Assembly: GCF_001748145.1 (NCBI RefSeq)
Contig: NZ_BCQA01000001.1
Coordinates: forward strand, 2,167,501 to 2,231,500
Source of the DNA: Bosea sp. BIWAKO-01
GTDB taxonomy: Bacteria; Pseudomonadota; Alphaproteobacteria; Rhizobiales; Beijerinckiaceae
DNA: 64,000 nt
Direction: 5' to 3'
Both the position numbers and the translations under genes were made by a program. This document shows positions 32,756 to 58,117 of this stretch, in pieces (position 1 is the first letter of the stretch; each line of letters begins with the position of its first letter). The notes beneath the pieces were generated by a model. The model was not told the DNA's origin and made no database searches. It saw only the letters and a program-made list of their open reading frames with translations.

Positions 32756-33589
32756 TCAGGCGCCCAGGATATCGGCTTCGAGCCGGGCCCGCAGCGCTGG
32801 CGTGACCTTGGGGGCCACACCGAACCAGCGCGCGAAGCCGGGCACAGCCTGATGCAGCAGCATGCCGAGCCCATCGACCGGAACACCGCCGCGACGTTCG
32901 GCCTCTTCGAGCAGAGGCGTCCGCAGCGGCACATAGACGATATCGTCAACGATCGTGCCGGGGCGGAGTCTGGTGAGATCGAGATCGAGCGGCGGCTTGC
33001 CGTTCATGCCAAGCGCCGTCGTGTTGACGATCAGATCGGCCGCTTCGACCAGCTCATGACGCCTTGACCAGTCCTGCGCCTCGACCGGCACTCCAAGTGC
33101 CCGGGCAAGTTCCATGGCTCGGTCCGCGCTGCGGTTGACGAGGGTGATCCGCCCGAGGCCGCGCGCCTTCAGTCCATAACCGATCGCCCGCGCCGCGCCG
33201 CCCGAGCCAAGAATGAGAGCCGTTGCGACCCGTTCGCTCCAGCCGGGTACGCTGCCGTCAAGATGGGCGAGGAAGCCGGCAGCATCGGTGTTGTCGCCGA
33301 ACAGGCGCCCATCCTCACGCCAGATCGTATTCACGGCTCCCATCGCGCGGGCGACGGGGCTGAGTTCATCGACCAGCAGCAGCGATGCTTCCTTGTGCGG
33401 CACCGTGACGTTGCCGCCCACGAATTCTCCGCTCCGGACCCGGGCCATGAACGACGAGAGTGCGGCCGGTGCGACATCGATGCGTTCGTAGGATCCGTCG
33501 AGCCCATGCTCGGCGATCCAGCTGCCATGAATGAGCGGAGAGCGTGAATGGGCGATCGGGTGACCGATGACGAAGCAGCGACGGGTCAT
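32756..33589 (-). CDS. aroE: Shikimate dehydrogenase
   Basis: NADP-dependent reduction of 3-dehydroshikimate in aromatic amino acid synthesis. The 277-residue protein begins CFVIGHPIAHSRSPLIHG, the shikimate-binding motif, has the catalytic lysine region GNVTVPHKEAS (about residues 60-70) and the NADP-binding GSGGAARAI (about 130-138). It lies 18 bases from maf and 15 from coaE, inside the leftward maf-aroE-coaE-dnaQ cluster usual for Rhizobiales. Confidence 0.95.
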   Translation of the reverse strand: MTRRCFVIGHPIAHSRSPLIHGSWIAEHGLDGSYERIDVAPAALSSFMARVRSGEFVGGNVTVPHKEASLLLVDELSPVARAMGAVNTIWREDGRLFGDNTDAAGFLAHLDGSVPGWSERVATALILGSGGAARAIGYGLKARGLGRITLVNRSADRAMELARALGVPVEAQDWSRRHELVEAADLIVNTTALGMNGKPPLDLDLTRLRPGTIVDDIVYVPLRTPLLEEAERRGGVPVDGLGMLLHQAVPGFARWFGVAPKVTPALRARLEADILGA

Positions 33590-33607: not shown

Positions 33608-34234
33608 TCAATCGACGAGAGCGCCCTGCTCGCGCAGGGCTTCGAGTACGGCAAGGAGCGGGAGACCGAGAATGGTAAAATGGTCGCCCTCGACGGCAGC
33701 GAAGAGCTGGGAACCAAGGCCCTCGAGCTGATAGCCGCCAACGCTGGTCAGGATCGCCGGGCCAGCGAGTTCGACATAGGCCGCGATGAAATCCAGCTCG
33801 AGCCGCCTCATCGTCAGTCGTGCGGTCTGCCCGCCCTCAGCCAGGATCTCGCCGTCGCGCGCCAGCACGAAGGCGGAATGAAGCTCATGCGTGCGCCCAG
33901 CCAATGTCGCGATCTGCGCGGCGGCGCCAGGGAGATTCTCGGGCTTGTGAAAGATCTGGCCCTCGCAGGTCAACGTCTGATCGGCACCGAGCACGAAGCG
34001 GCCGGGCTTCATCACGGAAACATGCAGCGCCTTCGCGCAGGCAAGCGCGGCTGCGATCGCCTCGCCTTCGACCCCCTGTGCGAGGAGCGGCGCCTCGGCG
34101 GCTCGCTCGTCGATATCGGGCTTCAGGGTGTCGACCGGGAGCCCGGCCGCGCGCAGCATCCCAGCCCGGGTCGCACTGCCGGAAGCAAGCAGCAGAGGCG
34201 CCGCCGCAAGCCAGAGAGAAGAGCTCTTCGTCAT
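33608..34234 (-). CDS. maf: Maf-family nucleoside triphosphate pyrophosphatase
   Basis: The 208-residue protein carries the Maf motif [13 protein letters not shown] (about residues 14-26) and the later VLGADQTL segment. Maf proteins hydrolyse non-canonical or selected canonical nucleotides to monophosphates and affect septation in some bacteria; the preferred substrate (dTTP/UTP or modified pyrimidines) cannot be read here. ATG 34234 overlaps the ppsR stop as ATGA and removes an unlikely upstream extension. A serine replaces the common SPRR with SATR, a usual variant in alphaproteobacteria. Confidence 0.9.
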
Positions 34235-35061
34235 GTCGCGATGAACTTCATGCGATGGTCGCGCAGCAGGTCGAGGATCGCTGCCGCCGTCTCCTCGATC
34301 GAGCGCCGGGTCACATCGATGACCGGCCAGCCCCTGCGGGCGCAAAGCTTCCGCGACTGCGCGATCTCGTCGGCCACGGCTGTGGGGTCGACATAGGGCG
34401 TCTCGTCATCCGCCTTCATCGAGAGCAACCTGTTCTGCCGAATCTGGACGATGCGCTCGGCGCTGGCGACCAGCCCGACGATCAACGGCTTTCTCAGCCG
34501 TTCAAGTTCGGCCGGCAAAGGCACATTGGGGACCAGCGGTACGTTGGCGGTCTTGATACCGCGATTGGCGAGATAGATGCTGGTCGGTGTCTTCGAGGTG
34601 CGGCTGATGCCGACGAGGATGATGTCCGCGCTTTCCAGATCGCCCCCAAGCTGCCCGTCATCATGCATCAGCGTGTAGTTCATCGCGTCGATGCGACGGA
34701 AATATTCAGCGTTGAGGACATGCTGCGCGCCCGGCCGCGGCGACCCCGCCTGGCCGAGATAGGACTGGAACAGGGACAGCACCGGGTTCAGCACCGACAG
34801 ACAGGGGCAGCCGAGTTCCTGGCAGAATTTCTCGAGCCGCTCCGCCCATTCCGCTTCGACCAGAGTGTAGAGCACGACCCCTGGAGAGGATTCGATCTCG
34901 GCCAGGACCCGGGCAAGCTGCGCCTCGGAGCGGACCAGCGGATAGACATGCTCGATGGCCGAGACCGATTCATATTGGGCGGCGGCGGCCCGGCTGACCG
35001 CAATCAGGGTCTCGCCGGTGGCATCGGACACCAGATGCAAATGAAAATAGTTGCGCGCCAC
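34231..35061 (-). CDS. ppsR: Pyruvate, phosphate/water dikinase regulatory protein (DUF299)
   Basis: Bifunctional ADP-dependent serine/threonine kinase and Pi-dependent phosphorylase that switches PEP synthetase or pyruvate phosphate dikinase off and on. The 276-residue protein shows [14 protein letters not shown] at the N-terminus and the P-loop-like [18 protein letters not shown] segment (about residues 148-165). It is the first gene of the leftward block and its start borders the candidate replication origin, as in Rhizobium and relatives. Which dikinase it controls is not shown by the window. Confidence 0.93.
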
Positions 35062-35282
35062 GTGGGCTCCCGGGGCTTAACGAAGTTGCAACCTCTAGCG
35101 CGCCATATCGGCAATGCAAATTGTCGTCCTGGACCGGGACCCCCAGCGCTGGCCGCGATGAGGGGTCACGCTGGTTATGGGGACTGCTGTGGACAACCGT
35201 ACATCCGACAGGAGCCCGGGACGGCGACTGTATAAGTCCCGCTTTCCATCAACAGGCTGGCCCCTGGGGACACGTGGAGCGA

Positions 35283-35298
35283 TGTTTCACGTGAATCA
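35283..35298. other. parS-like centromere site 1
   Basis: TGTTTCACGTGAATCA matches the parS consensus TGTTTCACGTGAAACA in 15 of 16 positions. It lies in the middle of the ppsR-hemE gap, about 9.3 kb from parA. A GAATC (GANTC) site overlaps its right end. Confidence 0.7.
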
Positions 35299-35458
35299 TT
35301 TTAACGATCGGCAGCCCCGACGCCGATTCTGATTTCTTACTAATCAGTTAAGGCGCCCCGCCCCCCGGGCGATTCCGCCCTGCGACATCGGCTCGCCCTG
35401 TGGACCGGTTGTGGACAAAGTTGGGCCGGGCTATTTGCCCCTGACCAAGAGTCAAAAC

Positions 35459-35492
35459 AAAAGAATCTCTCTCTAAGATTCTTTTAAGATTC
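35459..35492. repeat. AT-rich inverted repeat with an added direct repeat
   Basis: AAAAGAATCT (35459-35468) and AGATTCTTTT (35476-35485) form a perfect 10-bp inverted repeat around CTCTCTA. AAGATTC then recurs at 35486-35492, 11 bp after its first occurrence. It ends 27 bases before the hemE start. It could be part of the duplex-unwinding element or an operator. Confidence 0.55.
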
Positions 35493-35519
35493 AGACCTGA
35501 ACGGCTGACCGGAGTGGGC

Positions 35520-36551
35520 ATGGCGAACGACGATCCGGTTTTCCTGCGGAGCCTTTCGGGCGAGGTGATGGCAAGGCCGCCGATCTGGCTGATGCGCCAG
35601 GCCGGACGCTATCTGCCGGAATACCGCGAGGTCCGGGCCAAGGCAGGAGGCTTTCTCGAGCTCTGCTACAATCCGGCCTTTGCTACCGAAGTGACCCTTC
35701 AGCCAATCCGCCGTTTCGGTTTCGATGCAGCGATCCTGTTCTGCGACATCCTCGTCGTGCCGCATGCGCTCGGGCAAAAGCTCTGGTTCGTCCAGGGAGA
35801 AGGCCCGCGGCTGGAGCCGGTGGGCGATGCAAAGAGGCTTGGCGAGATCCACGAGGAGATCGACCAGGACGTGCTGGCGCCGGTCTACGAAACGGTTGGC
35901 AAGGTCAGGGCTGCCCTGCCAGGCAACACCGCCTTCATCGGCTTCTGCGGGGCGCCCTGGACGGTCGCGACCTACATGGTGGCTGGGCGAGGCACGCCGG
36001 ACCAGGGTCCGGCCAAGGAACTCTTCACTCGAGACCCCGAGCTGTTCGCCCGGCTGATCGACCGGATCGTGGTTGCGTCCATCGCTCATCTCAATGCCCA
36101 GATCGATGGCGGCGTCGATGCGGTGCAGATTTTCGACAGCTGGGCTGGCTCGCTTGGCGAAGATGATTTCGAGCGCTGGTGCATTGCGCCGACCAAGCGG
36201 ATCGTTGACGGAGTGCGGGCGCGTCATCCCAAGGCAAAGATCATCGGCTTTCCCCGGGGCGCTGGTCGCCTGATCCCGCGCTATGTCAAAGCGACCGGGG
36301 TTGATGCTGTCGGGCTTGAGACGGATATCGATCGCGAATTTGCGCGGACGCAGATCCAGTCGCTTGCGCCGATCCAGGGTCACCTTGACCCGCAACTTCT
36401 CCGAGCAGGTGGTGCCGATCTGGAGCGGGAGGTCGAGGCAATCCGTACGTCCTTCGGTGCGGGTCCGTTCGTCTTCAATCTTGGGCATGGCATCCTGCCG
36501 GATACGCCGATCGCTCATGTCGAGCGTTTGCTTGCGGCCGTCAGGTCATGA
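35520..36551 (+). CDS. hemE: Uroporphyrinogen decarboxylase
   Basis: Decarboxylates uroporphyrinogen III to coproporphyrinogen III in haem synthesis. The 343-residue protein carries the first signature RPPIWLMRQAGRYLPEYRE (about residues 18-36) and the second GFCGAPWTVATYMV (about 141-154). ATG 35520 has GGAG five bases upstream; GTG 35514 overlaps that box and is less likely. It borders the putative origin and is followed by hemJ, 13 bases downstream, so both haem genes are probably co-transcribed. Confidence 0.96.
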   Translation: MANDDPVFLRSLSGEVMARPPIWLMRQAGRYLPEYREVRAKAGGFLELCYNPAFATEVTLQPIRRFGFDAAILFCDILVVPHALGQKLWFVQGEGPRLEPVGDAKRLGEIHEEIDQDVLAPVYETVGKVRAALPGNTAFIGFCGAPWTVATYMVAGRGTPDQGPAKELFTRDPELFARLIDRIVVASIAHLNAQIDGGVDAVQIFDSWAGSLGEDDFERWCIAPTKRIVDGVRARHPKAKIIGFPRGAGRLIPRYVKATGVDAVGLETDIDREFARTQIQSLAPIQGHLDPQLLRAGGADLEREVEAIRTSFGAGPFVFNLGHGILPDTPIAHVERLLAAVRS

Positions 36552-41978: not shown

Positions 41979-41992
41979 GTTTCACGTGAAAC
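41979..41992. other. parS-like centromere site 2
   Basis: GTTTCACGTGAAAC is a perfect 14-bp palindrome identical to the core of the parS consensus. It sits in the mnmE-mnmG gap, outside coding sequence, 2.6 kb before parA. Confidence 0.8.
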
Positions 41993-43946: not shown

Positions 43947-44590
43947 GTGGCTGTTGACAAGGACGATCGCGCCCGCGCTCTGCGCTTGACTCCTGTTTCA
44001 CGTGAAACAGAGGAGCGGCTCGCACTGCTGGTCGCAGAGCTGGTCAAGTGGCAAAATGCGAAGAACCTGGTCTCTTCCGCGACGCTGTCGGATGTCTGGA
44101 CGCGGCACATCGCCGATTCGCTCCAGCTCTTCGCCCTCGCTCCCGACGCCAGGACCTGGCTCGACCTCGGCTCAGGCGGTGGATTTCCCGGACTTGTGAT
44201 CGGGATCTGTCTTGCCGAACAGGGGCAGGGCCGCATCCACCTGGTCGAGAGCAATGCGCGCAAATGCGCCTTTTTGCGCCATGCGGCCCGGGTGACCGGC
44301 GCGCCTGTGACGGTTCATGCCTCGCGGATCGAGGATATCGTTGGGGAGTTCACAGAAAAAGTCGACGTCGTGACGGCCCGGGCGCTCGCACCGCTCCCGA
44401 TTCTGCTAGGATGGTGCAAGGAGTTGTTGAGAACCGGAACACTTGGGCTCTTTCCCAAGGGACAATATCTAGATGCTGAATTGACCGAGGCGTCTAAATA
44501 TTGGAAGATTCAGGCCTCGACAGTTGTCTCCGTGACAGATCCGGCAGCTCGCATTCTGTTGATTCGCGAGGCCGAGCAGCGGGCTGATAC

Positions 44591-44594
<4 letters not shown>
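43947..44594 (+). CDS. rsmG: 16S rRNA (guanine-527-N7)-methyltransferase RsmG (GidB)
   Basis: SAM-dependent methylation of G527 in 16S rRNA. The 215-residue protein shows the SAM-binding motif WLDLGSGGGFPGLVI (about residues 70-84). The residues VSRET near the N-terminus are encoded by a perfect 18-bp parS palindrome (43993-44010). Starts at GTG 43947, three bases after the mnmG stop. Its stop overlaps the parA start as ATGA, linking it to the partition genes. Confidence 0.94.
43993..44010. other. parS centromere site 3 (perfect, inside rsmG)
   Basis: CTGTTTCACGTGAAACAG is a perfect 18-bp palindrome containing the full 16-bp parS consensus TGTTTCACGTGAAACA. It lies within the first codons of rsmG, about 580 bases before parA, and is the best ParB site in the window. 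Confidence 0.9.
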
Positions 44595-45424
<830 letters not shown>

Positions 45425-45458: not shown

Positions 45459-46337
45459 ATGGCCGAGGAACAGGGACGTTCACGTCTTGGCCGGGGTCTT
45501 GCCGCTCTGATTGGAGATGTCGGCGACGAGATCGGAGCCCTCGAGCGTGCCAGAGGCCAGCGTCGGGTCCCGGTCGAGTTCCTGCGGCCGAGCGCGCGGA
45601 ATCCGCGGCGCAGTTTCGCGGATGACGAACTCGAGGATCTGACGGCTTCCGTGCGCGAGCGCGGGATCCTGCAGCCGATCATCGTGCGCCCGCTCAAGGG
45701 CATGGCCGACGCCTATGAGATCATCGCCGGCGAACGGCGTTGGCGCGCGGCGCAGCGCGCCGGCCTGCATGAGGTTCCTGTCATTCAGGTCGAGGCTGAC
45801 GACCGCGAGGCGCTGGAAATCGCCATCGTCGAGAACGTCCAGCGCAGCGACCTGAACGCGATCGAAGAGGCCGCGGGTTACGAGCGCCTGATTGCCGAAT
45901 TCAGCTATACCCAGAACGATCTGGCCCGCGTCATCGGCAAGAGCCGAAGCCATGTCGCGAATACATTGCGCCTTTCAAAGCTGCCTGAGCCTGTCCGGCG
46001 GATGGTGGCTGAGGGCGCCGTTTCGGCGGGCCACGCGCGCGCGCTGCTCTCGGTCGCGGATCCTGAGCTGATGGCGCGCAAGATCGTCGACGAGGGCCTC
46101 AGCGTCCGCGATATCGAACGGTTGGTGCAGGAAGAGACGCGGGGTGAGAGCAGGAACTCCCCTGGCAAGCCGAAACCCGACAAGGATCCGGACACCCGCG
46201 CGTTGGAAAAGGCGCTGGAGGAAGTTCTCGGACTATCAGTGTCGATCCAGCACCGCCCGAGCGGCGGGGGCGATATGAAGATTGGCTACAAGACGCTCGA
46301 TCAGCTCGATGCCCTGTGCCGGCGTCTGAAGGCCTGA
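45459..46337 (+). CDS. parB: Chromosome partitioning protein ParB
   Basis: CTPase and DNA clamp that loads at parS and spreads. The 292-residue protein has the ParB N-terminal domain with NPRRSF (about residues 48-53) and the CTP-binding GERRWRAA motif (about 91-98), then a helix-turn-helix segment (SYTQNDLARVIGKSRSHVANTLRLSKLP, about 150-177) that recognises parS, and a C-terminal dimerisation domain. An AGAGG ribosome-binding site precedes the ATG. The convergent holA ends 22 bases away without a visible terminator. Confidence 0.97.
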   Translation: MAEEQGRSRLGRGLAALIGDVGDEIGALERARGQRRVPVEFLRPSARNPRRSFADDELEDLTASVRERGILQPIIVRPLKGMADAYEIIAGERRWRAAQRAGLHEVPVIQVEADDREALEIAIVENVQRSDLNAIEEAAGYERLIAEFSYTQNDLARVIGKSRSHVANTLRLSKLPEPVRRMVAEGAVSAGHARALLSVADPELMARKIVDEGLSVRDIERLVQEETRGESRNSPGKPKPDKDPDTRALEKALEEVLGLSVSIQHRPSGGGDMKIGYKTLDQLDALCRRLKA

Positions 46338-58101: not shown

Positions 58102-58117
58102 GTTTCACGTGAAGCGG
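58102..58117. other. parS-like centromere site 4
   Basis: TGTTTCACGTGAAGCG matches the parS consensus in 14 of 16 positions. It lies between the amt stop (58128) and its terminator, in non-coding DNA, about 14 kb from parB and 23 kb from the candidate origin. Confidence 0.65.

Follow-up and report, generated by a model that had tools for sequence, protein, structure and literature searches.

A predicted chromosomal replication origin between ppsR and hemE in a Bosea species carries a conserved parS-like site

In this study we analyzed a stretch of 64 kb (the window, C1:2167501-2231500) from the genome of a Bosea species, which comprises 7.33 Mb in two contigs. The region of interest is the gap at positions 35062-35519 of the window, corresponding to C1 2,202,562-2,203,019. 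It is flanked on one side by ppsR (34231-35061, minus strand), whose product matches the Kinase-PPPase family (PF03618, E 8e-91), which we take to be COG1806/DUF299, and on the other side by hemE (35514-36551, plus strand, start at 35514 or 35520) encoding uroporphyrinogen decarboxylase (URO-D, PF01208, E 8e-109). The Pfam matches agree with the initial annotation that genes diverge on both sides, and they place on either side of the gap the gene pair that characterizes origins of the hemE/COG1806 type. The region has a GC content of 58.3%, compared with about 61-66% in the surrounding 2-kb steps. A search for other RNA elements with Rfam returned a single sub-threshold match, which lies within hemE and was rejected as a candidate. 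The genome encodes dnaA, parA, parB and a methylase-like protein with a RAMA domain and DPPY (CcrM type). For comparison, hemE was found in 120 of 121 relatives, and the interval from ppsR to hemE was aligned for the best 30 HemE loci of the genus, our own included.

The region had been annotated as a probable chromosomal origin, and a skew minimum near dnaA had been named as the observation that would speak against it. In 500 contiguous kb (C1:1,920,001-2,420,000) the cumulative GC skew has its minimum at 2,200,941, only 1.6 kb before the candidate, and a scan of the window by itself places the minimum at 33,441, which is the same base. The dnaA gene, at C1 1,956,165 and 246 kb from the candidate, sits on the falling arm of the skew; an origin near dnaA was rejected on the basis of the skew, which turns at ppsR-hemE instead. 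When C1 was sampled coarsely (20 kb out of each 120 kb), the skew showed one clear minimum, bracketed by the samples at 2.16 and 2.28 Mb, and peaked near 5.2 Mb; in the same samples the majority strand of the octamer GGGNAGGG, presumably a KOPS-like motif, flips at about the turning points of the skew, with a few samples disagreeing. A dip in the sampled GC content, considered as a possible island, is explained by masked bases. Gene orientation counts against an origin at this place: two crude counts of ORF strands over C1:1920001-2420000 revealed no leading-strand gene bias around it, and the plus-strand share of coding within 50 kb was 0.67 on the left and 0.40 on the right (0.64 and 0.41 in the other count), opposite to expectation.

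Two identical DnaA-box-like 9-mers and a third, partial box had been noted within the gap, and all three were recovered. Box 1 (35188-35196, minus strand) and box 2 (35410-35418, minus strand) both read TTGTCCACA, with one mismatch to TTATCCACA, and box 2 is paired with a weak DnaA-like box, TGTGGACCG, at 35399-35407 (minus strand). The copies of TGTGGACAA at 35188 and 35410 are the sole two in the window, where shuffles expect 0.13; in the genome as a whole (7.33 Mb) there are 16, two of them here and 222 bp apart, compared with 8 for the reversed control. Rarity was judged on a sample of 1.15 of the 6.83 Mb of C1, with the oriC region excluded and 7,500 bases masked. Paired DnaA-like boxes (at most one mismatch) were present in 319 of 1,125,853 sampled 458-bp windows, at two places, and two such boxes together with five GANTC sites in none of the 1,125,853. 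A point against the origin is that only two boxes match the E. coli consensus with at most one mismatch, a number that does not rise when two mismatches are allowed.

The end of the region next to hemE holds the lowest-GC 50-mer of the entire window, located in a GC scan at 35442-35491 (30% GC, with AT above the genome mean) and probably acting as a DNA unwinding element. In the 30 aligned intergenic regions the corresponding 50-mer occupies a similar place, with 26-36% GC and a distance of about 25-50 bp between its end and the hemE match. Inspection of the sequence also verified the AT-rich inverted repeat noted before, AAAAGAATCT...AGATTCTTTT at 35459-35485. The predicted DNA fold of the AT-rich end (35395-35519) is not significant (z -1.67; matched by 12 of 200 shuffles). 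As hemE and ppsR do diverge from the region, it might be merely their divergent promoter, with the blocks serving as transcription factor sites and the origin lying near dnaA or elsewhere; CtrA, GANTC and DnaA-like boxes are also found in promoters. We regard this explanation as highly improbable, given that the skew turns at the region rather than at dnaA and that paired DnaA boxes, the most AT-rich stretch in the window and a cluster of parS sites come together with it.

A feature that had escaped the initial annotation is a CtrA-like box, TTACTAATCAGTTAA, at 35337-35351 (plus strand), with one mismatch to the consensus TTAA-N7-TTAA. In 27 of the 30 aligned genomes the box fits the consensus perfectly, at a distance of 52-64 bp from where the parS 16-mer (described below) begins; the background was 9 perfect sites in the 1.15 Mb sampled. 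Our own genome and its two nearest relatives read TTAC, with C where the CtrA consensus has A, and this was counted against. Perfect boxes were also seen in 21 of 40 further regions of 1,010 bp before hemE, a raw hand count without background. The IHF consensus WATCAN5WTR has no match in the oriC region and is matched in 2 of the 30 aligned intergenic regions, which likewise counts against; without an IHF site we did not file the region as a Cori-like CtrA/IHF origin. A search for a composite CtrA and GANTC pattern found nothing.

Across the 30 aligned genomes the conserved blocks follow each other in the order DnaA box 1 (aligned block identity 0.87), TCAACAGG, the 18-mer TGTTTCACGTGAATCATT, the CtrA-like box, the pair at 35399 and 35410 (0.94 for each) and the AT-rich end, and between them lies poorly alignable DNA. 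All 30 genomes have a DnaA box with at most one mismatch; 16 have two or more and 14 a single one, the latter being counted against the origin. In two loci (L083 and L090, genomes G001 and G020) the ppsR edge of the origin bears an insertion of more than 100 bp with inverted repeats, which resembles a short mobile palindromic repeat.

The palindrome described earlier as parS-like proved to be conserved. It reads GTTTCACGTGAATC at 35284-35297 (plus strand), overlaps the GANTC at 35293 and forms the core of the 18-mer (35283-35300), which shows no difference among the 30 aligned genomes of the genus. From the 16-bp parS palindrome TGTTTCACGTGAAACA it departs by one mismatch, and this variant is itself exact in all 30. 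In a family search the 16-mer occurred exactly once in 24 of 25 genus genomes, 237-265 bp before hemE; such conservation, of the 18-mer as well as of the 16-mer, rules out a chance match. The whole genome contains five parS-like sites (at most one mismatch), all within 72 kb (C1 2,202,784-2,274,520), the outermost of which lies within the oriC candidate. Two perfect sites are located between mnmE and mnmG (41979-41992) and within the coding sequence of rsmG (gidB; 43995-44008), and a one-mismatch site, GTTTCACGTGAAGC, at 58102-58115. The sites thus cluster near the origin, and parA (44591-45424, plus strand; AAA_31, E 2e-57) and parB (45459-46337, plus strand; ParB_N, HTH_ParB and ParB_C domains) are encoded in the window. 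A second copy of the GTTTCACGTGAATC variant is found at C1:2274507-2274520, 72 kb from the origin, and similar sites occur in other genomes of the genus.

Because of the skew minimum, the rarity of the boxes, the lowest-GC 50-mer, the parS cluster, the footprint common to 30 genomes, the encoded machinery and the literature, we predict with great confidence that the main chromosome of this Bosea species (C1, 6.83 Mb) has its DnaA-type replication origin at 35062-35519. The initial proposal of a chromosomal oriC between ppsR and hemE is supported by the genome-wide skew, the rarity of its motifs and the conservation over 30 genomes. This predicted origin appears to carry a conserved embedded centromere site, whose function we infer from its sequence.

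The embedded parS is present in 42 of the 44 genus genomes examined (out of 67), those without it being G041 and G047; the 44 combine the genomes of the family search and of the alignment with two loci in which HemE is divergent. Among 40 further regions upstream of hemE, four of them from the genus, parS with at most one mismatch occurs in three (G051, G017 and G071), and in G071, which belongs to another genus of the same family, it lies in the opposite orientation. HemE is only 47-64% identical in 10 of 66 genomes of the same genus (G017, G026, G031, G034, G041, G044, G047, G051, G055 and G061; in G026 and G034 it was matched in part or in pieces), and among the four of these genomes in which the origin region was read, parS is present in two and absent in two. 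A scan of the genome collection returned at least 117 stretches, all selected for carrying the 18-mer somewhere. Among the 117 listed, 20 hold both ppsR and hemE: five of these (HemE 74-79% identical) have parS in the gap together with a perfect CtrA box. Unlike the Bosea origin, the remaining 15 (HemE 50-58%, all below 70% identical) have no parS with at most one mismatch in the ppsR-hemE gap, and a perfect CtrA box in two.

It might also be possible that the origin lies here while the parS-like 18-mer serves another DNA-binding protein and loads no ParB. The 18-mer is asymmetric, with conservation running past parS (ATT) in 30 of 30 genomes where a plain parS would be symmetric, and 24 genus genomes contain a single copy of the 16-mer each, all of which would suit such a protein. 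The wider distribution of the 18-mer speaks against it: MnmE or MnmG is matched in 102 of the 117 listed stretches, ParA and ParB together in 4 of the 7 actinobacterial records among the 80 titled stretches, and mnmE/mnmG and parAB neighbourhoods are the usual places of parS. Moreover, 130 genomes of the order contain 143 sites that vary at the variant position, and the base is the same as here in 126 of them (hand count). We therefore consider another protein unlikely and favor parS as the identity of the site. In the 80 of the 117 listed stretches that were viewed singly, the 18-mer often stands at the very end of mnmE, and in other Hyphomicrobiales the neighbourhoods of the perfect mnmE-mnmG and rsmG sites also house the 18-mer variant.

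The reported cluster of GANTC sites was borne out, with 7 in the 458-bp region versus a mean of 0.67; 226 of 1,126,085 sampled windows of the same size reach 7. Over the window as a whole (1-64000) GANTC is depleted, 148 sites being observed versus 362 expected from dinucleotide shuffles, so that the cluster at the origin stands out. Two of the seven are invariant in the alignment. The one in the AT-rich part (35463-35467) is kept in 30 of 30 rows while its N changes (T 15, C 11, A 4), which we take as strong evidence that selection acts on the methylation motif itself at this site. All 30 rows also keep the GANTC at the parS (35293), where N is A throughout; the other five columns are retained in 24, 17, 7, 3 and 3 rows.

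How far the GANTC at the parS reflects methylation can be judged from the base that varies there. Within the order, the pattern GTTTCACGTGAABC was counted 143 times over 130 genomes, with T in 126 cases, G in 15 and C in 2 (a hand count that includes sites shared by descent). Full lists of one-mismatch parS sites from 16 of the 67 genus genomes contain 56 sites, of which 42 make a GANTC (hand count); the origin site itself accounts for 16 of these 42. CcrM is said to occur in most Alphaproteobacteria, according to the text of PMC11514494 that concerns it. That the T variant is kept for CcrM throughout this class is unsupported by our counts: in 28 genomes of other alphaproteobacterial orders G occurred twice and T never, and of 162 genomes of Pseudomonadota outside the class 10 had such sites, T (7) being commoner than G (3) (both hand counts). 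Since the T variant was not seen in these 28 genomes of other orders and is the commoner one outside the class, it does not track CcrM; on the sequences compared it is a habit of this order and not proof of methylation control. These counts favor the view that the overlap of GANTC and parS is a by-product of ParB tolerance and has no methylation effect, which we consider probable, although no reversion is seen across the 30 aligned genomes in a window otherwise depleted of GANTC (148 vs 362 expected).

By its location the origin is very probably ordinary, lying in the gap between hemE and COG1806/ppsR as textbook Alphaproteobacteria predict. Rhizobial origins are alike in this respect, the same gene pair being found in many members of the order, and in rhizobial loci such as L210 rho, mnmE, mnmG, rsmG, parA and parB follow in order. 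The origin of Sinorhizobium meliloti likewise adjoins hemE. It is described, in the portion of PMC4433202 dealing with CtrA, as having neither CtrA motifs nor CtrA binding, and it differs in this from the Bosea region with its CtrA-like box. The Cori of Caulobacter crescentus, between hemE and COG1806, resembles our region in its flanking genes, DnaA-like boxes, AT-rich stretch and CtrA-type box, but the account of it in PMC1914354 lists five sites each for DnaA and CtrA and one for IHF, whereas the Bosea region has a single CtrA-like box and nothing matching the IHF consensus. The parS sites of Caulobacter cluster about 8 kb from its origin, as stated in the relevant part of PMC5815017, whereas in Bosea one lies inside the predicted origin. 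Replication and partition sites overlap in other systems as well: as summarized in sections of a review (PMC4468827), parS2 of Vibrio cholerae is located within rctA beside oriCII, and a DnaA site inside a Caulobacter parS affects partition. However, oriCII is run by RctB and not by DnaA, unlike the Bosea region, and in Caulobacter a DnaA site lies in a distant parS, whereas in Bosea a parS lies in the predicted DnaA origin. In Hyphomonas neptunium the marker-frequency maximum is near hemE (PMC6650430); two parS sites are upstream of parAB, which is about 7 kb from hemE, and the pertinent passages of the source report none within the origin. For Methylocystis sp. SC2, the genome description in PMC3794950 gives, in its part on replication, an oriC predicted with Ori-Finder away from the dnaA genes. 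In those portions of the literature on parS within oriC that we covered, we met no DnaA-type origin with an embedded parS, and in the complete-genome literature we found no Bosea replication origin, neither of which proves absence from print.

As to how the predicted origin might work, DnaA would bind the TTGTCCACA boxes that flank the middle, at 35188 and in the pair at 35399 and 35410, and melt the AT-rich stretch at 35442-35491 beside hemE, where the helicase would be loaded. Phosphorylated CtrA would block initiation from the central TTAA-N7-TTAA-type box, as in Caulobacter, and the conserved GANTC sites would be targets of CcrM methylation. With ParB loading at the embedded parS (35284), replication would begin by copying centromere DNA. 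We infer every binding event in this scheme, as well as its effect. A more far-reaching idea, which we put forward as a long shot, is that ParB loads on the Bosea parS between the DnaA boxes where it overlaps a CcrM site, and that the methylation state left by the fork (full to hemimethylated) alters ParB loading and thereby the access of DnaA and CtrA, making initiation and segregation one switch.

The interest of this origin lies in its conserved embedded centromere site and in the methylation sites that are kept, its place being the expected one. How the start of replication is coupled to the segregation of sister origins is an open question in Caulobacter. In the genus studied here, about 230 bp bring together parS, DnaA boxes and a CtrA-type box, and two GANTC sites are invariant; with so compact a layout coupling becomes testable through single-base changes. 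The 15 more distant loci, which have no parS at this place and mostly no CtrA box, offer a natural contrast. In these bacteria the start of replication and segregation may thus be wired together in one short stretch of DNA.
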